IMG/VR virus record: IMGVR_UViG_3300013137_001215
Coordinates: 1-32,141 of that record
Direction: 5' to 3' (one strand)
Length of the DNA stretch: 32,141 nt
From: a virus
In this document: positions 5,029 to 27,632 of the stretch, piece after piece
How the letters are laid out: each line of letters begins with the position of its first letter
Numbering within the stretch: the first letter of the stretch is position 1
Notes under the pieces: model-generated
The model's database searches: none
What the model was told of the DNA's origin: nothing
Seen by the model: the letters and a program-made list of their open reading frames with translations, nothing else
Made by a program: the position numbers and the translations under genes

Positions 5029-5589
5029 TTAAACGAATATTACATCGCTAAATTCTCCACCTAAGTGGAATTTTATTTTCTTCTTAGCAACTTCGTCATA
5101 AACTTTGTTCCAGTTTATATCACCAACAACATTGTTCTTGAATGATTCAAACTGTCTGTCTACAACAAACATTGGAACTTTTGACCTATCAACACCTTCG
5201 TTCAAGTCTTTTTTGATTCTTTCTTTTGATAAATCAACATCAGGTTCAAAAACTATTGCAATTTTTTCAATATCAGTATATTTCTTTAAGAATTTTCTTG
5301 CAGAAGCAGATACACCAGTAGCATCGAATACACAGTATCCGTAAACATCTAAATTGTTTTTCAATCTAGAGTCTGCTAATTTCCAAATATAGTTGTCTCT
5401 TGATATATCAGAAACATCTCCACAAACTTCTCTACGGATATCATCAGGACACACTTTTATATTTTCTAAAGTTAAACCTCTTTCTTTCAGGAAGTTTGCT
5501 ACTTCAGAAAAATCAGTTAAAAATCTATTCTTGTAGTAAGTAGATTTACCTGACCCACTGAGACCTATACTATAGTATAATTTTTTCAT
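5029..5589 (-). CDS. Polynucleotide-kinase-like P-loop kinase
   Basis: A 186-residue AAA_33-type kinase. Walker A is GLSGSGKST (residues 9-17). PDDIRRE (48-54) matches the lid/substrate motif of T4 polynucleotide kinase (PseT) kinase domains, and R123/K-rich helices after EPDVDLSKER fit the lid arginines. It would phosphorylate 5'-hydroxyl ends of RNA or DNA. There is no phosphatase domain, so it is kinase only. In T4, Pnk repairs host tRNA cut by defence nucleases, with RNA ligase; no ligase is visible here. It has a host-type promoter box upstream. Confidence 0.75.
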   Translation of the reverse strand: MKKLYYSIGLSGSGKSTYYKNRFLTDFSEVANFLKERGLTLENIKVCPDDIRREVCGDVSDISRDNYIWKLADSRLKNNLDVYGYCVFDATGVSASARKFLKKYTDIEKIAIVFEPDVDLSKERIKKDLNEGVDRSKVPMFVVDRQFESFKNNVVGDINWNKVYDEVAKKKIKFHLGGEFSDVIFV

Positions 5590-9841: not shown

Positions 9842-10705
9842 TTAATTTGAGTTGAACAATTTTTTAATATTCTTTTTACCACTTGTTTTTGAAAAAAGAT
9901 TATAAGTAGCACATAAACCTACACTCCAACCCCATCTTGAATTTTCACCTTTTATATCTGTATTCAAACCAATACCAGCATAAGGTCCAAAAGCCCATTT
10001 ATTTACAGTTTTTGCTTCTGGTACAACTTTATCTATCATTAAAGCACCATCCAATTCTGTAAATTTAACCAAAGGTGAAGGTGAAAACGCTTTAACTGTA
10101 TATTTATTATTGTCTTCTGTCAAAGCATATCTAATAGCAACTGTAAAATAATTTGTATCTAATGTAGATTTAAGAGGTTGTGGTTTACAATTCATAGGGT
10201 CAATTCTGAATTGTGTTTTACCCCATAATGATTGAGTGAAACCTTCATCTTTATAATTAAATGTCCAAGGTATTGTATATCTATTAGAATCTGATGGATC
10301 TGGTATAATTTTATTTATTTCACTTACAAGAGTAGGTACAATAACTTTTACATCACTCTGAATTCCTGCAACAATATTTTTCATATTTTTAAAATCATTA
10401 TAAAATTTTTCATTATATTTTTGCATATCATCCATTGATTTAACTAAATATGATGTTTTTTTAGTAACCATTTTATCAAGTTTTTCATCATAATATGTTC
10501 TTAATGAATCTTTCATAGCTACTAAATTATTCTCATAAATTGCCACATCTCTATTGTGATTTGATTTTTCTTCACTTAATCTATCACAAGTTCTGAATAA
10601 CAAAACAATAAGAATAACAATTATAACAGCAAGAGTAAGTTTTATATACTTACTACTGAATGCTTTCTTAAAAAATTCAACGATAGAATTAATAATTGAT
10701 TTCAT
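9842..10705 (-). CDS. Membrane-anchored protein with beta-rich C-terminus
   Basis: A 287-residue protein. One transmembrane helix at ~21-42 (LTLAVIIVILIVLLF) follows a basic amphipathic start. A coiled coil spans ~45-120. The C-terminal half is beta-rich and ends with alternating glycine/aromatic strands (FGPYAGIGLNTD, GWSVGLCATYNLF) like outer-membrane beta hairpins of Bacteroidota proteins. Its ATG overlaps the stop of the giant upstream gene by four bases (ATGA), so the two are translationally coupled. An envelope-spanning role such as a spanin-like or tail-associated protein is possible but unproven. Confidence 0.6.
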   Translation of the reverse strand: MKSIINSIVEFFKKAFSSKYIKLTLAVIIVILIVLLFRTCDRLSEEKSNHNRDVAIYENNLVAMKDSLRTYYDEKLDKMVTKKTSYLVKSMDDMQKYNEKFYNDFKNMKNIVAGIQSDVKVIVPTLVSEINKIIPDPSDSNRYTIPWTFNYKDEGFTQSLWGKTQFRIDPMNCKPQPLKSTLDTNYFTVAIRYALTEDNNKYTVKAFSPSPLVKFTELDGALMIDKVVPEAKTVNKWAFGPYAGIGLNTDIKGENSRWGWSVGLCATYNLFSKTSGKKNIKKLFNSN

Positions 10706-13700
10706 ATTTTATTGATCTTTTTTCTAATTGGTAAATTAACCACATCATTATATTTATTATTTGCTTGGTCCCAAGGCGCAATATCATAATATTTTTTTCT
10801 TTTCTTTAAAGATGTATAATTTACTTCATAATTCTGTTTTGGTATAGATGTTATATCAAAATCTGTTGGTTTCTCAAAAGCAGTATCTCCACTTGTAGCA
10901 ATGTCTGGATTTAAAGTGTTCCAACCAAACCAATCACCACTTACCCATCTTCCACCATGCCATGCACCTTCAAATCTATAACCATAAAATTCACCATTAT
11001 ACCATTGGTCTTTGAAATTTGATACACTAGCGGAAACATTTCTTGAATAAATCTGAATACCAGCCATTTTATTGAAGTTTTGTGTACTTGTTTGGTCATA
11101 TTGATTCCAAGTTCTGAAATTTTCCTTATCTTCTTGTGTTATCATAGAATTCCAAATTGTCGAATATGTATTTGTTGTAGTATACATATCATAATACAAT
11201 TTTTCCATAAAAACATCATTGATATTAAAACTTGAATAATTTGATAATGCATCTTTTCTATATGAATGATAAACACTAAATAGAGCCGCATCTTGGAAAT
11301 TGTGATATGTAGAATAGTTATTGCTCAAATAATACCAACTCAACTCATTATTAAAAGAATATTTCATTAAATTCCAAATTCTATCTTGACTATCATTTGA
11401 ATAAACTTGATTTACACCAAAATATGACATACCTTCATCTTTATCTATAAATAGTGTTGGATATAAATATGTGAAAGAACTTATAGACATTTTTTCTTTT
11501 AAATTAACTTCTTTAATTATTGTTCTTGAATTAATATCAACCCAATTTGATACAACGCCTATCTGAAGTTTATCACTAGTAGATACAGAATTTGTACTCC
11601 AAAGAGTTCTTATAAATTTTATTTTTTCTAATAAAGCGTTATTTCCCCAAATATCTGTTCTACCTGTTAATTCAACTTCATAGTCTCGTTCAGGATTTCT
11701 CCATGTCCCAGCACTAATATATGATGTTTGATATATATTTCCTGTTAAACCACCAGTCATATCATTAAAAATATATTTTTGTGTTGTTAAGTCATAGATA
11801 AGTGAAGACTCTGCTCCTTTATCAGCACCAGATGAATTTACAACTCTTTGATATATAGGAGATGGATTATCAATTTCACTACTATAACTTATTACAGTGT
11901 TTATAAAATAATCACGATTTGGATTAATAGATAATCTTTCAAAAGAATTTGGGAATGTAACTGTAGATTGTGTATAACCATATGGAGAAACAGTATTCCA
12001 GTAAGGTAAGTTATAAGAAACATAATCTTTTCTAGATGGTTCGGCAACTGTGTGTACACTATCTGTCACAGAACTTAAATTAAATATGTTAGAAGTTTTC
12101 ATATTTGTACCTATCCAAATATCAGTAGCATCCATATCACTTATTGGAATTGTATCAAATATATAAGCTTTATTAACAAAATCATAATCTAATATTGTAG
12201 TATTAATTGTTATAATTGTGCCATTAAGGTTTTTATACAATATATTTACTATTTTACCACTACAAGATATTGTTGGCTCTATACCAACATGACAAGTAAT
12301 ACTTGCTGCTAATGATAGAGGTTGAAATTCTGGGTCAACTATCTCAACATAGAACTTATCATTTGTTGCACCAGTAAGACCAGAGTTTGAAACTTGCCAA
12401 GTTCCTTTTATTAGACTATTTGTATCATCATCTGCATAGCAACTTAATGATACCCAATTTTTACCATTACAGCCATATCTCCATTTTTCTAAAATAGTTG
12501 AAGCCGATAAGTATGATGTTAAACCAGTAGCACCAGTTATTATACCGTCAATTTTATAATCAATACTGTTATAATCCCAGAAAGAATTTCCAGAGAACAT
12601 GGTCCAAGGTAATACATCGTTGAAAATCAATCTATGAGTTGAACCAATATTTACCATTTCACAATAATAAACATTTCTATGTTGATAATAAGAAATTGAA
12701 CCTAAATAATTGATATTACTCATATAAAATCCTGGTTCTGGAAAATAATTATGAAATATTGGTTGCATTCTTATAGCTAATTTATTATACCAATTTTTAT
12801 AATTTAATTGAACAAATATATTATCACTTATATTATCACTATATTCTGACGCTGATGTAATACCTGTGCCTAATGTATAATTATAAGGTAACATATATTT
12901 AAATGTTTCTACATTACACTGAGAATTGGCACCACCTGGATATAAATCATTTCTTCCAACATAGTAATAGAAAGGTACAATTAAACCTCTATTCATAATA
13001 TAAGCGTTTGCTGCACAATTTGTTGTACTTAAAACACCAGTACCTTCAATGTATAAAATATTATTTTTAAATGTATCATAATTAAAACCAGATATTTTTG
13101 TTATAGTATATTCAGCATCATCTAAACTAGTATCAGCTAATATTATACCGCCTGCAGCTAATGCTAATATTTCAGTACCAGTCTCAGTACCAGTACCAAG
13201 ATTAGACATAACTGATGTGTTTTCCAAATAAATCTTATCACCAACAGCAAAATAATCACTCAAATTAAATGTGGTATCAAAATATACTGCCTTGCCAACA
13301 ACTGAACATTTAAATAATTGAGAATTATAAATCAAATTATTTAATGTAGCATTGTATTGTGTTCTAAAATCCTTAACCATGTTAAAACTAGGATCTGTCA
13401 AACCTTGCTCAACATATATGTCTCTGAAACTTATAGTATTTGTAAAATCAGTGCCAGAATGATTTTTGTGTTGTGTTATATAAAAATACAACCAATCTGT
13501 AAATTTCTGATTATAAGGGTTTGTATAATTTGTTGTTGAAAGAGCATTAACATCTACTGTACATCTATCAATAGAATTATATATGCTGTAAGGTATATCA
13601 TTTTTATTAATATAGAAACCATCACAATCTTCACCATTGTTTTGTATAACAGATAAAGAATCTGATGTGAAAGTTCCTGCTCTAATAATGTCTGTAACGC

Positions 13701-16700
13701 CTGTTATACCTTGTTCATCTATCATTATATTCCAATTTATACTTGGTGTCGTTGAACCTGTTATCCACCAAGGTGGTGGACATGAGCCATAAATCCATTT
13801 TGTATTTGTTGTATAATGTTCTGCTGTATCATCACTATATTTTATAACCATTTTTCCAACTTTCGTTGTATCATCATTACCACTCTCACTTGTTCCACCA
13901 ATAGGTCCATTCAAAACAGGCATAGGATGTGTATAATAACCACTATTTGCAATAGACCAAACATTTCTAAAGTTTCTTGCAAACATTTCTTTTTCACTAC
14001 TTGTACAATTATCATACAAATCTTTAATTGTATTAAATTTAAAAATAAGGTATAATGGATAATGTCCTGATGAAGATCCACCTATTACATAGTTTACGAA
14101 ATCATAATCCATTCCATATAAACTTTCAAAGGATGCATATGATGCGGCTGTTAATGTTACTGCCGAACTATCGACAAATACTGTATCACTTTCAATAATC
14201 TCTGCACCAGGATTTATAATTTGTAAATGTAAGTCACCATCAGTATCAGCCAAAACAAAATCAATTGCTTTCTTTAATAAAATTCTAGACTCATATGTGG
14301 TACAATTTAATTTAAATACAAATTCATATGGTGAAAATGTGTACTCTGTTGTATCATCAAACATAGTGCTAGAAGAATAACTCGTTTCTCTTTTCCATAC
14401 AGCATCGTTCATATATGATTTTGATCTATCATCTGTTACAACACTTGACCATTCTATTTCCAATTGATTACTACTAGTTGCAAAAGCACTAATACCAAGA
14501 AATAGATTTGTTTCTAATGCAATACTTTTTTGATAAACCAAAGGATAAATACATTCTATTACATATGTACTACTTGTTAGAGGACCATCATTACTATTAT
14601 CTATTACACTATTATCTCTAAAAATTGAAATTCTTGTTGTTTCTTTTTGTCCTAAAACATTTAAACCGAAGACTCCGTTGTAAAATTTGCCATTGTACCA
14701 GTTATTTTCTGGGTTTCCTGATTGACTTTGGAATGAACTACCATTGAATATACCATTATACCATTGAATACCATTACTCATTATAACATTGTTAAAATTG
14801 CCATTATATACATTTATATTTCCATAAAATTTAGCATTATTATATGTACCACCATACAATTCATAAAATGTTGTTGATGCTGAAGATGTAGCAAGTGTAG
14901 TACCAGATTTAAAATCCATTTTTTGTATTAATCCAGTATCACCAAACATCCAACTGTTATAATCTCTAACTAATATAACATAATCATCACCTACAGCATT
15001 TGCAGTTTGATATGAATAACCAGTACCAATTATGGCGATAGGTTTTGATGGGTCTAAATATCTATTATTTTCAATAAGTGTTGTTGTGATATTATATAAT
15101 TCTTGTGAATTAAAACCAAATAATTTAACATTTGTTGATGCATCAGATGATACAAAGTTGTGTCCATTATCAAACTCAATATACATTTTAGTAACAGTTG
15201 CGTTTGTTGTTGTGTCATATAATATTTTACTTTTAATTGAACCTTTACTCATAGTAACATATTCAGAATTAAACTGATTACTTGTGAAATAACCATATGG
15301 TAAATAAAATGGACCGTATGGTGGACTTCCATTAGGCGATTTTGATAAATAATTTTTCTGACCACCTGAAAATTTTCCATCATATATAGTTATTGGTGAG
15401 AAAAACAATCCATCAGTAACATCAGCATAATTAATTGTGTTAAAATTATAAAATGCAGGATATGTAAAGACACCATTATTTATCTCCGAATCAGAAAATT
15501 CATTTAAACCGTATACATAATCTGATAATGTTCCACCACTATTATAAATAGGATTACACCAAACACCATTAAAATCACCATCATAAATTTTGGAATTAGC
15601 AAATCTATTAAACACTGCAACACTATCTCTTGATATTTCAAAATTACCACCATAAATATTTGTATTCTTTAATGTTACATTGTAGAATATACCATCATAA
15701 ATATCTCCTTTATTAAAAACTACATTATGTAATTCACCACCATAAACTGTACCGTTTTTCCAGAAAATAGTATTGAACGATGTATTTTTCATTAAACCGC
15801 CTCTAAATTTTCCATCAAACCATTGAGTTCCTATATTTTGTCCAGTAGATATATCAGTATATCCTGTACCTTGAAAATTACCACCACTAAAATCTCCATT
15901 AACCCATATTAAACCTCTCCAATTACCATTTAAAAAAACACCATCTTGCCATATAGAATTGTTGCCAGCTATTCCAAAAGTACCATTAAGGAATATACCA
16001 TCTTCCCAAGTATTTAATTCAAATGTATTTCCATACCAACTTCCATAATGCCAAGTTGAATCATTAGACAATTCACTTGTATTGTGAAAATATCCACCAT
16101 AAATATCATATTTCTGTATAGAACAATTATAAAAATATCCTCTTGTTATAGTTGTTGAGCCACTTATTGTATTTTTTATTGAACAATTATAATAATTGCC
16201 ACTTGATATATTACAATTTTCCAAAGAAGAACTCAAATCATAATAATAAGAATATCCATAACCATTATTATCTAAATTTGAATATTTTACATAAGTATCA
16301 TTTGTTGAATTATAATTAAGAAGTAATGATACATAATTAACACCGTATTTATCAACGATATTACAATCATTAATATCACCATTAAACATAACACATTGAG
16401 TTAATGTTATATTACTTGGTTGGTCGTTTGAATCTATTGTAGCATTTCTAAATACTGTCCCATCAACTTTAGCATTGTTTATTGTAATATTGTTACATAT
16501 AACTTTAGAAACATAATGACCATATATTTTACCGTTTGTTGGTATAGTGTAAATTAATTTGTCAATGACAAATGTATTAATGTTTTTATCAACATAGATT
16601 ACTTTATAACCTTGTGAATCTGGATTGTAAATAAAATCATTTGCATATAAAATTGTTGTATAGTTATCTAGAATTACATCTATGTTATAATTTAATGTGT

Positions 16701-16860
16701 TTGTATCACCACTAAATGTAATAAAAACAATATCACCTTCTTCTATATGTGAATCTAATTCTGTATATAATTGGATATAACCATTATAAGAATCTATTTT
16801 TGGTAATAATTTTACTGCATTTACTGTTCCTAAATCATCATATCTTGATGGTGCAGACAT
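10702..16860 (-). CDS. Giant repeat-rich structural protein (putative tail fibre/adhesin)
   Basis: A 2052-residue protein with no signal peptide. From ~residue 195 to ~430 and again at ~650-730 and ~1985-2020 it carries degenerate repeats of a YxGxFxG/WxNGxF type (WYNGKFYNG, WQDGVFLNG, WFDGKFRGG, YDGDFNG, WHGGRWVSG), typical of stacked-turn beta structures. The rest is rich in Asn, Ser, Thr and Tyr, as in receptor-binding fibres. It is the largest frame here and has no break. The gene's size, coupling to a membrane-anchored partner and composition suggest a virion surface protein contacting the host, but no named family is recognised. Confidence 0.6.
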   Translation of the reverse strand: MSAPSRYDDLGTVNAVKLLPKIDSYNGYIQLYTELDSHIEEGDIVFITFSGDTNTLNYNIDVILDNYTTILYANDFIYNPDSQGYKVIYVDKNINTFVIDKLIYTIPTNGKIYGHYVSKVICNNITINNAKVDGTVFRNATIDSNDQPSNITLTQCVMFNGDINDCNIVDKYGVNYVSLLLNYNSTNDTYVKYSNLDNNGYGYSYYYDLSSSLENCNISSGNYYNCSIKNTISGSTTITRGYFYNCSIQKYDIYGGYFHNTSELSNDSTWHYGSWYGNTFELNTWEDGIFLNGTFGIAGNNSIWQDGVFLNGNWRGLIWVNGDFSGGNFQGTGYTDISTGQNIGTQWFDGKFRGGLMKNTSFNTIFWKNGTVYGGELHNVVFNKGDIYDGIFYNVTLKNTNIYGGNFEISRDSVAVFNRFANSKIYDGDFNGVWCNPIYNSGGTLSDYVYGLNEFSDSEINNGVFTYPAFYNFNTINYADVTDGLFFSPITIYDGKFSGGQKNYLSKSPNGSPPYGPFYLPYGYFTSNQFNSEYVTMSKGSIKSKILYDTTTNATVTKMYIEFDNGHNFVSSDASTNVKLFGFNSQELYNITTTLIENNRYLDPSKPIAIIGTGYSYQTANAVGDDYVILVRDYNSWMFGDTGLIQKMDFKSGTTLATSSASTTFYELYGGTYNNAKFYGNINVYNGNFNNVIMSNGIQWYNGIFNGSSFQSQSGNPENNWYNGKFYNGVFGLNVLGQKETTRISIFRDNSVIDNSNDGPLTSSTYVIECIYPLVYQKSIALETNLFLGISAFATSSNQLEIEWSSVVTDDRSKSYMNDAVWKRETSYSSSTMFDDTTEYTFSPYEFVFKLNCTTYESRILLKKAIDFVLADTDGDLHLQIINPGAEIIESDTVFVDSSAVTLTAASYASFESLYGMDYDFVNYVIGGSSSGHYPLYLIFKFNTIKDLYDNCTSSEKEMFARNFRNVWSIANSGYYTHPMPVLNGPIGGTSESGNDDTTKVGKMVIKYSDDTAEHYTTNTKWIYGSCPPPWWITGSTTPSINWNIMIDEQGITGVTDIIRAGTFTSDSLSVIQNNGEDCDGFYINKNDIPYSIYNSIDRCTVDVNALSTTNYTNPYNQKFTDWLYFYITQHKNHSGTDFTNTISFRDIYVEQGLTDPSFNMVKDFRTQYNATLNNLIYNSQLFKCSVVGKAVYFDTTFNLSDYFAVGDKIYLENTSVMSNLGTGTETGTEILALAAGGIILADTSLDDAEYTITKISGFNYDTFKNNILYIEGTGVLSTTNCAANAYIMNRGLIVPFYYYVGRNDLYPGGANSQCNVETFKYMLPYNYTLGTGITSASEYSDNISDNIFVQLNYKNWYNKLAIRMQPIFHNYFPEPGFYMSNINYLGSISYYQHRNVYYCEMVNIGSTHRLIFNDVLPWTMFSGNSFWDYNSIDYKIDGIITGATGLTSYLSASTILEKWRYGCNGKNWVSLSCYADDDTNSLIKGTWQVSNSGLTGATNDKFYVEIVDPEFQPLSLAASITCHVGIEPTISCSGKIVNILYKNLNGTIITINTTILDYDFVNKAYIFDTIPISDMDATDIWIGTNMKTSNIFNLSSVTDSVHTVAEPSRKDYVSYNLPYWNTVSPYGYTQSTVTFPNSFERLSINPNRDYFINTVISYSSEIDNPSPIYQRVVNSSGADKGAESSLIYDLTTQKYIFNDMTGGLTGNIYQTSYISAGTWRNPERDYEVELTGRTDIWGNNALLEKIKFIRTLWSTNSVSTSDKLQIGVVSNWVDINSRTIIKEVNLKEKMSISSFTYLYPTLFIDKDEGMSYFGVNQVYSNDSQDRIWNLMKYSFNNELSWYYLSNNYSTYHNFQDAALFSVYHSYRKDALSNYSSFNINDVFMEKLYYDMYTTTNTYSTIWNSMITQEDKENFRTWNQYDQTSTQNFNKMAGIQIYSRNVSASVSNFKDQWYNGEFYGYRFEGAWHGGRWVSGDWFGWNTLNPDIATSGDTAFEKPTDFDITSIPKQNYEVNYTSLKKRKKYYDIAPWDQANNKYNDVVNLPIRKKINKI

Positions 16861-22924: not shown

Positions 22925-23338
22925 ATGAAAATTTTAAATCAAATCAAGAAAGATGCAGTCACCGCACTAAAAGAAGGTAACAAGGAAAAGAAAATTGTTC
23001 TTTCAACATTGTCTGCTGAAATTCAGAGAAATGAACCAGTCATTATAAATGGTGAAAAAACTTGGTCAGATGAAATTGCAATAAAAACTATTGCAAAACT
23101 TATTGAAGCTAATAAACTTACAGGTTGTATTTCAGAAAATGATATAATCTCAGCGTATATGCCTGAAATGATGTCTGCTGAAGAATTAACATTTCTAATT
23201 CAAAATCATATAATGACTTTAAATCTTTCTTCTCAGAAAGATATGGGCTCTGTAATGAACTTTCTAAAACAGAATCATGCTAGTAAATATGATTCAAAAC
23301 AAGCATCTTTGATTGCAAAAAATTTATTAACAAAATAA
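22925..23338 (+). CDS. yqeY: GatB/YqeY-domain protein
   Basis: A 137-residue YqeY-like protein, about the usual length (~147). It starts ILNQIKKDAVTALKEGNKEK, as in the family's first helix pair, and ends with SQKDMGSVMNFLKQNHASKYD and SLIAKNLL, the conserved KDMGKVM...L...ADGK...VxxLL pattern. The domain resembles the tail of GatB, the tRNA-dependent amidotransferase subunit that contacts tRNA, so a tRNA or RNA link is likely, though the role of free YqeY is not settled. It is rare in phages and lies 2.2 kb before the Ro60-like gene. Confidence 0.85.
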   Translation: MKILNQIKKDAVTALKEGNKEKKIVLSTLSAEIQRNEPVIINGEKTWSDEIAIKTIAKLIEANKLTGCISENDIISAYMPEMMSAEELTFLIQNHIMTLNLSSQKDMGSVMNFLKQNHASKYDSKQASLIAKNLLTK

Positions 23339-23339
23339 T

Positions 23340-23465
23340 ATGAAAAACAGAGACAATTTCACATCACTTGGACACTATGGTGGCGTAAGTGTATCTTACC
23401 TTTCTTGGAAAAAAAGAATGGTAGGCAAAGTTAAGAGAGGATTTTATTCATTATTCTTAAAATAA
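23340..23465 (+). CDS. Small basic peptide before radical SAM enzyme
   Basis: 41 residues, MKNRDNFTSLGHYGGVSVSY at the start, then LSWKKRMVGKVKRGFYSLFLK. It overlaps the radical SAM start (TAATG), so translation is coupled. The aromatic-x-x and WKK motifs are the kind modified by radical SAM/SPASM peptide maturases, so a RiPP-like precursor is possible. It could equally be an unrelated small phage protein. Confidence 0.5.
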   Translation: MKNRDNFTSLGHYGGVSVSYLSWKKRMVGKVKRGFYSLFLK

Positions 23466-24511
23466 TGTATAAAACTTATTTTAATAGATTTCGGGTATTT
23501 AGAACCGAAGGATATAAGTCTGTCTTCGATTTTAAGACAGGCTATTTTCTTAGTAAAAATAAGAAAAACTATTCTCCTTTTGGTCCAGAAACTCTTGAAG
23601 TAGAAATCACAAAAGGCAATTGTCCACACAAATGCAAGTTTTGTTATAGATATAATCAAGATAAAGAGTTTAAAAATATGTCATTGACTGAATTTAAAAC
23701 TCTTGTAAATAAAATGCCACCAACGATTACTCAAATAAGTTTAGGAATTACTGGCATCCAAACAAATCCTGATACAGAATCAATTGTTGATTTCTGTATA
23801 TCAAAGAGAATTAAACCGAATATAACTATAACAGGTATTGACTTGACAGATGATTTCGCAAAAAGAATTGTACCAAAACTTGGTGGTATAGGTATTTCTG
23901 TTTATAAAGATAAAGAAGAACTTGCTTTTAACACTTTAAACAGAATTAAAAAATATGGTCATAAACAAGTTGGTTTTCAAATAATTGTTGCTAAAGAAAC
24001 TTTGGAATTTGTTTATAAAGTAATAAATAGATTTCTTGCTTCTGGTACAAAAATAAAACCAGACCATTTAGTGTTAATAACACCAAAGCCAGTAAGTGGT
24101 AGTACATTTACTTTACTTGATAAAGATGAATATAGAAATCTATTAAAATATTGTTTACATAATAAAATAAATGTTGGTATGGATCAATGTTCCAAACCAA
24201 GACTTAAAAAAGTAGTATCAGAAAATCTTGTGAATAATATAGATAGTTGTGAATGTTCTTTTTTTACTGCTTTTATAGATGTTTATGGAAATTACTGGCA
24301 TTGTGGTTTTTCTGAAATTGCACACAAAGACATTCACGATAAAATGAATGTGTTTGAAGTTGAAAAGTTTGAAGATATTTGGGAATCAAATTCTTTGAAA
24401 AAACTTAGAAAAGATATAGAAGATAATATAGTAAATGGTTGCAGATTATGTCCTTTATTTCCAAGTATAAATAAATACCAAGATGATAAAGAAATAATTA
24501 AAGAGTGTTAA
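23465..24511 (+). CDS. Radical SAM/SPASM-like enzyme
   Basis: A 348-residue radical SAM protein. CPHKCKFCY (residues 53-61) is the CxxxCxxC motif that holds the [4Fe-4S] cluster cleaving S-adenosylmethionine. Later cysteines (C262, C264, C280, and CRLC at 326-329) with FIDVYGNYWHCGF resemble a SPASM region for extra clusters. SPASM enzymes modify peptides, proteins or sugars. GITGIQTNPD fits the GGE-like strand-2 region loosely. Short coupled peptides lie on both sides (23340 and 24513). Substrate not determined. Confidence 0.85.
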   Translation: MYKTYFNRFRVFRTEGYKSVFDFKTGYFLSKNKKNYSPFGPETLEVEITKGNCPHKCKFCYRYNQDKEFKNMSLTEFKTLVNKMPPTITQISLGITGIQTNPDTESIVDFCISKRIKPNITITGIDLTDDFAKRIVPKLGGIGISVYKDKEELAFNTLNRIKKYGHKQVGFQIIVAKETLEFVYKVINRFLASGTKIKPDHLVLITPKPVSGSTFTLLDKDEYRNLLKYCLHNKINVGMDQCSKPRLKKVVSENLVNNIDSCECSFFTAFIDVYGNYWHCGFSEIAHKDIHDKMNVFEVEKFEDIWESNSLKKLRKDIEDNIVNGCRLCPLFPSINKYQDDKEIIKEC

Positions 24512-24931: not shown

Positions 24932-24962
24932 AATGAAAAAAAATGACATTTTTCGAAAAATA

Positions 24963-24970
24963 TATAAATA
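24963..24970 (+). promoter_or_regulatory. T4-late-like TATAAATA box before the RNA units
   Basis: Exact core about 80 bases before RNA unit 1. There is no ORF between it and the Ro60-like gene 610 bases on, so it could drive the non-coding region and the gene together. Confidence 0.45.
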
Positions 24971-25047
24971 AAAATTAAAACTTTTTCCAAAAAGTAAAAT
25001 ACAATATATTTACGAGAGAGAAACGAGGAACAAGTTTAAAATTTTAT

Positions 25048-25257
25048 GAGGATACATACAGCAATTTATAAAAATAAACAATTATAAATTAAAGTTGATC
25101 AAACAGAGTGGTTTGGATAATGCTACTTCCACTTTGACCAGAGGCAACTTTGGAAAAAAACAAAAAAGCGTATTTGCTTTCTAAAAATAAGTTTTAAGAA
25201 ACTTACTGGTATCCTGAAACATAATTAGTCCAAGTGTGGAAATGTTTGGACTGATAC
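25048..25257 (+). ncRNA. Non-coding RNA-like unit 1 upstream of Ro60-like gene
   Basis: About 210 bases without an ORF. It shares ordered blocks with unit 2: GAGGATACATACAGCAATT (25048-25066), TGCTTTCTA (25175-25183), CTTACTG (25202-25208), ATCCTGAA (25211-25218) and TGATAC at the end. Predicted stems: AAAGTTG/CAACTTT (25091-25097, 25144-25150) enclosing AGAGTGG/CCACTTT; TAAGTTT/AAACTTA (25188-25205); ATTAGTCCAA/TTGGACTGAT (25224-25255, with one wobble). Stem sequences differ from unit 2 while pairing is kept, supporting a structured RNA. A Y RNA-like partner of the Ro60-like protein is inferred. Confidence 0.7.
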
Positions 25258-25271
25258 GAGAAACATAAAAC

Positions 25272-25489
25272 GAGGATGTATACAGCAATTGTATAGCAAA
25301 CTACAATTCAAATGAAGAAGAGGTTTACTATCATAGTATAGTTCCTCAGACTGTCCTTCTAGGAAGGTTAAGTTAAAATGTAAAAACAGTCTGAACAAAA
25401 ACTATCTGTGTGCTTTCTAGTCAAGGTATAATAACCTTACTGCATCCTGAACTTACTGTATCAATCAGATGTGAAAGTCTGATTGATAC
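25272..25489 (+). ncRNA. Non-coding RNA-like unit 2 upstream of Ro60-like gene
   Basis: About 218 bases, a diverged tandem copy of unit 1 at offset 224-236. Blocks: GAGGATGTATACAGCAATT (25272-25290), TGCTTTCTA (25411-25419), CTTACTG (25436-25442), ATCCTGAA (25444-25451). Stems: TATACA/TGTATA around GCAAT; GAGG/CCTC with ACTAT/ATAGT (25319-25346); CAGACTG/CAGTCTG (25347-25393) enclosing CCTTC/GAAGG; AAGGT/ACCTT (25423-25438); and a 12-base stem GTATCAATCAGA/TCTGATTGATAC (25458-25489). It ends ~90 bases before the Ro60-like ATG. Confidence 0.7.
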
Positions 25490-25490
25490 C

Positions 25491-25545
25491 TAGATTTCTA
25501 ACAGCAATAAAAAGTTTAATGAAACCAAAAACGGAAATCTGTTAA
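25491..25545 (+). other. Third hairpin with the ACAGCAAT motif
   Basis: AGATTTC (25492-25498) pairs with GAAATCT (25534-25540). The loop begins ACAGCAAT, the motif that starts both RNA units. It may be a partial third unit or the 5' leader of the Ro60-like mRNA. Confidence 0.4.
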
Positions 25546-25581
25546 TTTGTAAAAATTGACCAAAAATAAAATAAGACAATT

Positions 25582-27195
25582 ATGAAAAATCTGGTTAACA
25601 AAAACATGTTCGTAGAAGAACTTACAAGCTATGATGCTCAAACTGAAAATGGTGCATTAAGCCATTCATCCACTGGTGAACACACTCTTGATTACTTTGC
25701 TAAGGCTGGTACATTCAGAGGTAGAGGCGAAACAGAGGTTGCTGGTGATATTTCAGCGGCTTGGAACGAGAACCCAGAATTGGCTCTCAGAACAATGTTC
25801 TATTTGCGTTCTGTAACCAGAAAAACAAAAGGATTTTTTGAATCTGAAAAGGTTCAAAAAGGTCAAGGTGTTAAAGACGAATTCATCAAATTGATGAAAT
25901 GGTTAGAAAATAACCAACCAGAAACTCTTTACAAAAACCTATGGCTAGTACCAGTAGTAGGTTCTTGGAAAGACCTATGGCATGATTCATCTGATACCAA
26001 TTATTTCTATTATGTAAACCCAACCAAGGTTTACGAATTGGTTGTTAAGGGTATAAATGATCCATATAACATGGGTCTTATTGCAAAGTATTTGCCAAGA
26101 ATCCGATCTGCAAGAAACACTAAGAATGATAGACATATCAGAAAAAATCAGTGGGCAAAAGGTTTATGTAAGTATTTAGGTTGGACTGAAAACCAATACC
26201 GTAGGTTTAAGTCAAATCCTGAAAACACTGCACACTCTTTTCAAAGAGTGATGTGTGGTGGCTTATGGGATAACCTTGATTTTAGTGTCATATCTGGTAA
26301 GGCTCTATTCAATCTTATTACCCTCAAAGGTAGAGATGGAAAAACCACATTCCAAAGACATGGACTTGAAGACAAGTACATAAATTGGTTGAAGATTCAA
26401 CCAACTGCTAAATTCACGGGCTATATTTATGAATTGTTCAAACAGACTGGAAGTGGTATCCTACCTCTTATTCAAAAGATAACTTATGACAAACAGTTCG
26501 ATGGCTTAGTCGAATTGGCTAAGAAGGATGAAGGCGGCATCAAAGGAAATGTATGGTGTGCTCTTGATACTAGTGGCTCTATGCAGTCAATAGTAGATAA
26601 GAAAGACACATCAGCATATGATGTATGTGTTTCCCTTGGTATATTCTTCTCAGCATTGAATGAAGGAGCATTCAAAGACCATGTTATAATGTTCGATGGA
26701 ACATCAAAAGTTTTGAAAATAAACGGCACATTCACCGACAAATGTAGCCAAATCAGAACTCATTCAACAGCTTGGGGGTCAACTAATGTGAATTCTATTA
26801 TAGACGAAGTAATTAGAGTTAGAAAGCAAAACCCTAACATACCTGTAGAGGATTTCCCAACTAACTATCTTATAGTAAGCGATATGCAATTTAATCCAAC
26901 TGGAACAATGGAAACCAACTATGAAAAAATAGTTAGAAGACTTGCTGAAGTAGGTTTACCAAAACCAAATATTATTTGGTGGCAAGTTGCTGGTAGAACA
27001 AAAGATTTTCCAAACAAAATGAATGATGAAGGAGTAACTTTATTATCAGGTTTTGATGGATCAACCATACAACTTATTTTGGGAGGGGAAATGGAAAAAG
27101 TTGATGAAATTACTGGACAAGTAAGAAAACTTACACCAATTGAACAAATGATCAAATCACTTGATCAGGAAGTGTTGAATCAATTAAAACTTTAA
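25582..27195 (+). CDS. Ro60/TROVE-like (DUF2828-type) vWA RNA-binding protein
   Basis: 537 residues, the same size as Ro60 (538) and Deinococcus Rsr (531). Residues ~1-310 are helical, with the FYLRSVTRKTKGF...KWLENNQPETLYKNL and LIAKYLPRIRSAR pattern of DUF2828/TROVE-like HEAT rings. Residues ~322-520 form a von Willebrand A domain with an intact MIDAS: DTSGS (329-333), T401 and D434 (SDMQF). Ro proteins are rings that hold misfolded RNA ends and are gated by Y RNAs; in bacteria they link to PNPase. Here two RNA-like units precede it and a structured region follows. Codon use is less AT-biased than in neighbours, suggesting strong expression. RNA binding by this subfamily is inferred. Confidence 0.85.
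   Translation: MKNLVNKNMFVEELTSYDAQTENGALSHSSTGEHTLDYFAKAGTFRGRGETEVAGDISAAWNENPELALRTMFYLRSVTRKTKGFFESEKVQKGQGVKDEFIKLMKWLENNQPETLYKNLWLVPVVGSWKDLWHDSSDTNYFYYVNPTKVYELVVKGINDPYNMGLIAKYLPRIRSARNTKNDRHIRKNQWAKGLCKYLGWTENQYRRFKSNPENTAHSFQRVMCGGLWDNLDFSVISGKALFNLITLKGRDGKTTFQRHGLEDKYINWLKIQPTAKFTGYIYELFKQTGSGILPLIQKITYDKQFDGLVELAKKDEGGIKGNVWCALDTSGSMQSIVDKKDTSAYDVCVSLGIFFSALNEGAFKDHVIMFDGTSKVLKINGTFTDKCSQIRTHSTAWGSTNVNSIIDEVIRVRKQNPNIPVEDFPTNYLIVSDMQFNPTGTMETNYEKIVRRLAEVGLPKPNIIWWQVAGRTKDFPNKMNDEGVTLLSGFDGSTIQLILGGEMEKVDEITGQVRKLTPIEQMIKSLDQEVLNQLKL
27166..27195 (+). repeat. Ro60-like gene 3' end, copy 1
   Basis: Encodes QEVLNQLKL and stop, the real end of the Ro60-like protein. It matches 27458-27487 at 26 of 30 bases. 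Confidence 0.85.
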
Positions 27196-27233
27196 GTTTT
27201 TCTTCAATCGATTCGTCATAACTGATTCGTATT

Positions 27234-27270
27234 AAACGAATATTGTTCTTGAAACAATATTCGTTTTTTA
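27234..27270 (+). terminator. Intrinsic terminator after Ro60-like gene
   Basis: AAACGAATATTGTT (27234-27247) pairs perfectly with AACAATATTCGTTT (27253-27266), loop CTTGA, then six T. It lies within the minus-strand endonuclease remnant. Confidence 0.85.
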
Positions 27271-27457
27271 TTTTATCATTTTCTTGTCTTTTATTAAATC
27301 CTTTCTCACCACCCCATCTTTCAATGATTTTAAAATGTCCTTCTCCATCATATTCAATACAAATATTTAATTCATATAAATAAAAATCAAATGGTAATTT
27401 TTTTACATTCTTACAATCATCAAATCTTTTTTGTCGCTCAAATTTAATGTGTTGTCT

Positions 27458-27487
27458 CAGGAAGTATTAAAGCAATTAAAAGTTTAA
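27458..27487 (+). repeat. Ro60-like gene 3' end, copy 2
   Basis: Encodes QEVLKQLKV and stop in the equivalent frame. With copy 1 it brackets ~260 bases that hold the endonuclease remnant, and it is probably the ancestral gene end. Confidence 0.8.
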
Positions 27488-27595
27488 TGTGGCAGTAAAG
27501 GCTCTGATTCTTAAACCCTCCCTAAAGGCTTGAATTAACCTTCTGAGTGCTATCGGTTACCGAGTTAGGGTTGTATGTAACTGATTTCCCGCACA
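27488..27595 (+). ncRNA. Candidate compact structured RNA downstream of Ro60-like gene
   Basis: 108 bases without an ORF, GC-richer than neighbours, ending in a strong terminator. TGTG (27488-27491) can pair with CACA (27592-27595). Inside, AACCCT (27514-27519) pairs with AGGGTT (27567-27572) and encloses AAGG/CCTT (27525-27542) and TCGG/CCGA (27553-27563), a branched shape loosely like the tRNA-like module of bacterial Y RNAs. It could be a separate RNA or the native 3' UTR of the gene before the insertion. Confidence 0.45.
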
Positions 27596-27632
27596 AAAAG
27601 TCAATGAATTAATTTTCATTGACTTTTTATTT
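27595..27632 (+). terminator. Intrinsic terminator of the downstream RNA region
   Basis: AAAAAGTCAATGAA (27595-27608) pairs with TTCATTGACTTTTT (27615-27628). Confidence 0.9.

Follow-up and report, generated by a model that had tools for sequence, protein, structure and literature searches.

A Ro60-like phage protein beside a family of structured RNA elements: a candidate ribonucleoprotein with tRNA-like parts in its relatives

The virus record IMGVR_UViG_3300013137_001215, whose 32,141 bases are the window analysed here, encodes a 537 amino acid Ro60-like protein with a von Willebrand factor A (vWA) domain (DUF2828/DUF7788; 25582..27195, plus strand), and immediately upstream of the gene lie three copies of a small structured RNA element. 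The pairing of Ro proteins with Y RNAs is already known, also in phages. An earlier note on this DNA had proposed a phage Ro-RNA system for RNA quality control, decay of host RNA or evasion of defence. The existence of a Ro60-like protein with a dedicated, conserved RNA is now strongly supported by the protein fold, by linkage and by covarying stems, while the suggested functions remain unproven. The computation supports the fold of the protein, the RNA family, its covariation, its linkage and strand bias relative to the gene, and the mimicry of tRNA in relatives. We consider a partnership between the DUF2828 protein and the elements highly likely, while the chance that the resulting ribonucleoprotein (RNP) has a tRNA-directed role is slightly below even, and a version of that role in which the RNAs act as decoys is more tentative again. 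The combined statement, a phage Ro RNP with counterparts of Y RNA plus a tRNA-directed role, we judge to be probable.

The Ro60-like protein and its upstream RNA elements

At E <= 0.01 the only Pfam families matched by the protein are DUF2828 (E 9.5e-14) and DUF7788 (4e-27); Pfam TROVE is not matched, and PHROG 850, annotated as "RNA-binding protein", matches at 2e-67. A phmmer search of the PDB sequences gave no relative of the protein and only the fold search produced one, so its relationship to Ro rests on fold. An AlphaFold model built with an alignment of 22 relatives (predicted local distance difference test, pLDDT, 78; predicted template modelling score, pTM, 0.75) was used with Foldseek, which placed Ro60 structures at the top of its ranking. 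VIA-align superposes residues 16-506 of the model on Ro with RNA (1yvp_A) with a Z score of 21.4 over 399 residues at 4.1 A, a span that covers the helical-repeat and vWA parts in the arrangement of Ro60. The Z scores for Rsr and for the Ro60 of Thermus phage phiLo are 14.5 and 14.3 respectively, and those of other vWA proteins do not exceed 10.8. Residues D329, S331, S333, T401 and D434 of the metal ion-dependent adhesion site (MIDAS) are invariant among 26 aligned phage proteins, and the helical ring and vWA domain with intact MIDAS that had been recognised from the sequence are confirmed by these comparisons. Lacking a TROVE match, the protein is referred to here as a Ro60-fold relative and not as a member of the TROVE family. 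It is also common, as the phage collection contains 663 records of this DUF2828 protein.

The 610 bases before the gene had been described as free of open reading frames, and none of at least 60 amino acids occurs within 24950-25581. The region contains three elements of constant design, in which a 6-bp stem starting with G is followed by NNACAGCAA, a variable interior, a second strand ending in C, and TG; the motifs beside the 5' stem strand are, in order, ATACAGCAA, ATACAGCAA and TAACAGCAA. A strict definition, consisting of a pattern scan for stem, motif and CTG without a covariance model, finds exactly three elements in the whole window, all of them on the plus strand, while 300 shuffled windows give a mean of 0.02 and a maximum of 1. 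The elements start at 25050, 25274 and 25493, a spacing of 224 and 219 bases. Element 1 (25050..25214, 165 nt) has the stem GGATAC/GTATCC, the motif ATACAGCAATT, a long structured interior and a 3' CTG, and its terminal module is common to elements of other phages. A hairpin read from the sequence (AGTCCAA...TTTGGACT, 25227..25252) follows it within the aligned 224-base unit. Element 2 (25274..25447, 174 nt) has the stem GGATGT/GCATCC, the same motif, a structured interior and a 3' CTG, and is followed by a perfect 12-bp hairpin, an inverted repeat at 25458..25489. Element 3 (25493..25539) is 47 nt long and has the stem GATTTC/GAAATC, the motif TAACAGCAAT and a 3' CTGT, ending approximately 40 nt before the start codon. 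All of these features are on the plus strand.

Element 1 folds with a z score of -5.3 relative to shuffled sequences, and element 2 together with its following hairpin with -5.0. The first two units align with a score of 17, compared with -21.6 +/- 5.4 for shuffles, so the diverged tandem repeat of an approximately 215-base unit reported by the earlier note is real, although there are three copies rather than two and the third is the short one. Each of the units forms a closed RNA element. A typical element measures 45-65 nt, and the first two copies in the window are unusually long. This longer form of 165-174 nt was not found elsewhere: a search of viral contigs for TACAGCAATT...CTTACTG returned 119 stretches, none of which has a DUF2828 gene, and blastn of the window's RNA region against phages gave no match. 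At gathering scores no Rfam family matches anywhere in the window, and between 24900 and 25700 neither tRNA nor YrlA gives a match, not even at E 10.

Conservation beside homologous phage genes

The same element adjoins homologous genes in Felix O1-like, Listeria, Enterococcus, Bacillus, Campylobacter, cyanobacterial, mycobacterial and uncultured phages, and in viral contigs that encode relatives of the protein it lies directly next to the gene, the sequence of the stem being different. A scan based only on DNA, for two closely spaced copies of TTACAGCAA, returned 120 stretches, among which several good elements were present only in L059 and L126 (L numbers are our labels for sequences compared with the window); a DUF2828 homologue, at 27-28% identity, was likewise present in these two alone. 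A covariance model, R1, was built from 15 elements and gave 48 matches at E <= 1 on 46 DUF2828 loci, training elements included, all of them on the strand of the gene. Applied to 71 further, out-of-sample loci it gave 50 matches in 34 loci, again with 50 of 50 on the gene's strand. In these out-of-sample stems all six pairs change on both sides, and 100% of the cells are paired across 47 distinct rows against 21-46% in slid controls, a figure that leans towards the model to which the alignment was fitted; an earlier covariation count had used elements chosen by their stems. A second model, R2, built only from the out-of-sample matches, finds the greater part of the first set again, and mycobacteriophage Bromden and Bacillus phage vB_BcoS-136 in addition. 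With R1 the window's element 3 scores 48.7 bits, having been a training sequence for that model, and it is not among the R2 matches at E <= 0.05. The median length of 98 aligned phage matches is approximately 54 nt. Of the strict elements at most 1.5 kb from the gene, 96 are on its strand and 4 on the opposite one; control loci would lead one to expect approximately 2.

Homologous genes without the units, or a covariance search of phage loci without significant pairs, had been named in advance as genomic outcomes that would speak against the proposal. The fold is that of Ro60 and the same module, with covarying stems, adjoins homologous genes in many unrelated phages; the proposal therefore withstands both.

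Other observations weigh against a general partnership. A strict element within 1.5 kb was found in only 51 of the 123 DUF2828 loci, leaving the majority without one, and there is none within this distance in the group L015-L022 and L026 or in the T4-like phages L147 and L154. Many of the loci are related, so that counts of matches are not counts of independent events. Promoters are clear in just a few loci: sigma-70 promoters with up to 3 mismatches precede 25 of 102 elements where approximately 15.6 would be expected, a weak enrichment, although in L175 a perfect TTGACA-16-TATAAT ends 10 nt before the first element. To these can be added that neither an anticodon arm nor another part of a tRNA can be recognised in the interiors of the window's own elements. 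In bacterial genomes, searched with a narrower alignment, six loci from metagenome-assembled genomes were obtained, with convincing elements only in L378.

The position of the elements bears on whether they are RNAs in their own right. They could instead be cis-acting leader signals only, through which the Ro-like protein or another factor controls the translation or stability of its own mRNA, and no free RNA would be made. Sixteen elements do end shortly before a start codon, by 3 nt in L010, L011, L012 and L023 and by 12-16 nt in another group, and none of the sixteen has an anticodon-type loop, compared with 18 of 82 others; these start-adjacent elements may be a variant that acts as a leader or in autoregulation. 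The window's third element, with no inner anticodon-type hairpin and close to the ATG, resembles this class. Against a leader function for the family as a whole, 44 of the 102 placed elements are downstream of the gene (58 are upstream and none inside), others are among distant tRNA genes, and many carry tRNA-like cargo for which a leader switch has no need. We regard the explanation by leader signals as unlikely.

tRNA-like interiors, proposed role and neighbouring genes

The DUF2828 loci contain 3.48 tRNA genes per 10 kb compared with 0.02 at control viral loci, and the elements are interleaved with these genes, also in clusters distant from the Ro-like gene. The interiors of the elements themselves resemble tRNA. 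Hairpins of 5 bp are enriched in the interiors specifically at a loop length of 7, occurring in 20 of 50 elements where 8.4 are expected, and out of sample in 18 of 47 where 6.9 are expected, with loops of 9 raised too. The loops obey the anticodon-loop rule, with a pyrimidine at 32, U33, any base at 34-36, A37 and A38. In 16 of 111 elements the loop is identical to a real tRNA anticodon loop of the same loci, compared with 0.47 in matched control windows, and the out-of-sample set contains 5 such loops against 0.16 in shuffles. The anticodons displayed are those of Lys UUU (five times), Ser GCU, Gln UUG, Cys GCA, Phe GAA, Gly UCC, Thr UGU, Ile GAU, Asn GUU and Met CAU. In L126, L158 and L170 there are in addition several anticodon-like loops with C or A in place of the universal U33 (CCGTAAA, CCGGTAA, CCTCCAA, AAGTTAA), which might be altered mimics.

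In longer elements, such as those of L158, L150, L126 and Bromden, T-arm, acceptor and D-arm follow one another in a circularly permuted arrangement, and in Bromden the gene is directly followed by three elements, two of them short and one with a permuted tRNA. The clearest case is Enterococcus phage EA1 (L160), where the frame of stem and CACAGCAA encloses a complete permuted tRNA with the anticodon loop CUGCAAA. ARAGORN made no clean tRNA call on three un-permuted long elements, although that of L158 nevertheless folds to a cloverleaf. A similar hairpin unit (GGTTTTG...CATAGTTCC..CCGGAACATAAAG) stands before each of three tandem elements in EA1 (L160:3350-3850) and is possibly a processing signal. 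Other observations at these loci include a tRNA-like sequence between two elements, which by eye appears to have no D-arm (L175:860-930; GGGATGTTTTAGAACGG...CCATCCCA), a phage transfer-messenger RNA found by ARAGORN on the minus strand in a tRNA cluster (L165:1917-2291, tag GNYAYSFAY) with an RNA element overlapping or near it, and an RtcB gene near the DUF2828 gene of Listeria phage LMTA-148.

Strong co-location with tRNA genes, and the T-arms and D-arms within long elements, are what would be seen if the elements were degenerate or permuted tRNA genes and debris in phage tRNA clusters, unrelated to the protein. This is very improbable, given that every element, even one with no tRNA part, is enclosed by a constant, covarying stem and the ends ACAGCAA and CTG, that nearly all are on the strand of the gene, and that the loops keep the rules of anticodon loops while the stems of the arms vary.

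The role we favour for the RNP can be set out in a few steps. Partner RNAs would be transcribed from the elements beside the DUF2828 gene, and their constant end, comprising the G-led 6-bp stem, unpaired NNACAGCAA and CTG tail, could be the handle bound by the protein. The variable interior would then be the working end. Since in relatives it frequently consists of an anticodon arm or of a circularly permuted tRNA, we propose that the RNP may present imitations of tRNA as decoys or inhibitors of host nucleases that cut tRNA anticodons; alternatively, the imitations may be adaptors through which tRNA enzymes are recruited to the ring. Such mimicry is a pointer to the metabolism of tRNA or to nucleases that target it, and the setting of either role would plausibly be the damage or repair of tRNA. 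The elements that end just ahead of the start codon and have no tRNA parts could be used to autoregulate the gene. In the window, elements 1 and 2 have large structured interiors, and element 3 would be a copy of the leader type. Separate transcription, binding by the constant module, action on tRNA enzymes and autoregulation are what we infer. For YrlA of Salmonella a role as decoy against an anticodon nuclease has been proposed (PMC7790460).

A different reading follows the precedent of D. radiodurans (PMC7790460), by which the phage RNP would resemble Rsr-Y RNA-PNPase, with the RNA gating the ring and tethering an exonuclease for the decay of structured RNA, and tRNA imitation would be only a scaffold. 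The Ro60 fold agrees with such a complex. Anticodon loops of many identities on short arms go beyond the needs of a scaffold, however, and no nuclease partner was identified in this analysis, so that we consider this quite unlikely, somewhat more so than the leader signals.

If the favoured role is right, a conserved RNA partner can be assigned to a common phage protein whose role is not known, and phage Ro-like proteins become tied to tRNA biology through displayed anticodon loops of many identities. The suggestion that the tRNA mimics of Y RNAs inhibit anticodon nucleases (PMC7790460) would also become testable.

Around the RNA region and the gene the window contains several other features. 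A terminator-like hairpin lies 3' of the Ro-like gene (27234..27266, plus strand). On the minus strand, 27197-27490 encodes a fragment of 86 amino acids (EYDGEGHF...NNIRLIRISY) that weakly resembles DUF2726 (E 0.001) and brings to mind the homing endonucleases of phages, and beside it, at approximately 27455-27488, is a partial repeat of the 3' end of the Ro-like gene; together these have the appearance of a mobile insertion that has decayed. A Radical SAM/SPASM protein (23465-24511; PHROG 7293, unknown function) is encoded upstream of the RNA region. Two genes are nucleotide- or tRNA-related, encoding a YqeY/GatB-like "tRNA amidotransferase" protein (22925-23338) and a kinase-like AAA_33 protein (5029-5589, minus strand). 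A protein of 2052 amino acids with pentapeptide-like repeats (10702-16860, minus strand) is probably a virion or tail protein.

Comparison with Dictyostelid Class I RNA and with Ro-Y RNA systems

The RNA had been described as belonging to no recognised class, and here the earlier note needs to be corrected, as the elements resemble the Class I RNA of Dictyostelium (RF01414) and in other phages merge with YrlA-type Y RNAs. The Class I model scores 26.3 bits on window element 3 (E 0.015), 36.8 on L002 and 39.7 on L059, the best phage element, and at E <= 0.05 it matches 19 of 20 phage records (best 2e-7) compared with 4 of 14 control genomes; its gathering score of 41.5 is reached by no phage element. 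Class I RNAs are characterised by an AAG start, a covarying stem, an 11-nt motif, a CUGU end and a length of 42-65 nt, and have been reported as unique to social amoebae, with none outside Dictyostelia (PMC7919456). The phage elements share the AAG start, the CUG(U) end, a motif of the CUUACAGCAA type adjoining the 5' strand, and the covarying terminal stem of approximately 6 bp with a G-C closing pair, this stem being present in all three elements of the window. In length the agreement is mixed: element 3 of the window, at 47 nt, lies in the Class I range, and elements 1 and 2, at 165 and 174 nt, lie outside it. They differ in being phage-borne, in scoring below the gathering score and in having a motif one base shorter. 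The known binder in amoebae is Rnp1A, an RRM protein that is not Ro-like, and no tRNA parts have been reported in the amoeba RNAs.

The resemblance may stem from common descent, from transfer or from convergence. A joint reading would have a large phage RNA family of stem, ACAGCAA and CTG bound by DUF2828 proteins and displaying tRNA decoys against tRNA-cutting host defences, with the Dictyostelid Class I RNAs as transferred or inherited members of the same family and hence Y-RNA-like RNAs of a Ro-type protein. We hold this wider reading to be doubtful. The resemblance itself gives a first clue to what the amoeba RNAs may mean biochemically. In open papers we found no description of the terminal module, of the short forms that display anticodons or of the resemblance to Class I, nor any description in the literature of short RNA partners of phage Ro-like proteins; the short anticodon-displaying form and the link to amoebae appear to be new.

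The closest bacterial system is that of Rsr and YrlA (RF02553), in which a Ro60-fold protein is likewise encoded beside small RNAs. Bacterial Y RNA has an architecture that is circularly permuted relative to tRNA (PMC11472068), and the long phage elements that hold a circularly permuted tRNA module (L150, L160, L158, L126 and L151) are therefore YrlA-like. The YrlA model scores 40.1 bits inside L150 and 45.9 inside EA1, the best, with all scores below the gathering score of 69; weak matches of this model also occur in 13 of the 14 control genomes, which is why only the stronger scores count. The phage systems differ from the bacterial one in that the protein is DUF2828/DUF7788 and not Pfam TROVE, the terminal module consists of a stem, ACAGCAA and CTG, most elements are short with an anticodon arm only or none, and the window's RNAs contain no tRNA module. 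On their sequences, we take the short phage elements to be the same frame with only the anticodon arm, or with none. Among phage proteins, TROVE proteins have been described in jumbo phages (PMC7824862). The Ro60 of Thermus phage phiLo (9l5y) has the same overall fold as the window protein, and the mycobacteriophage "Ro-like RNA binding protein" carries the same annotation.

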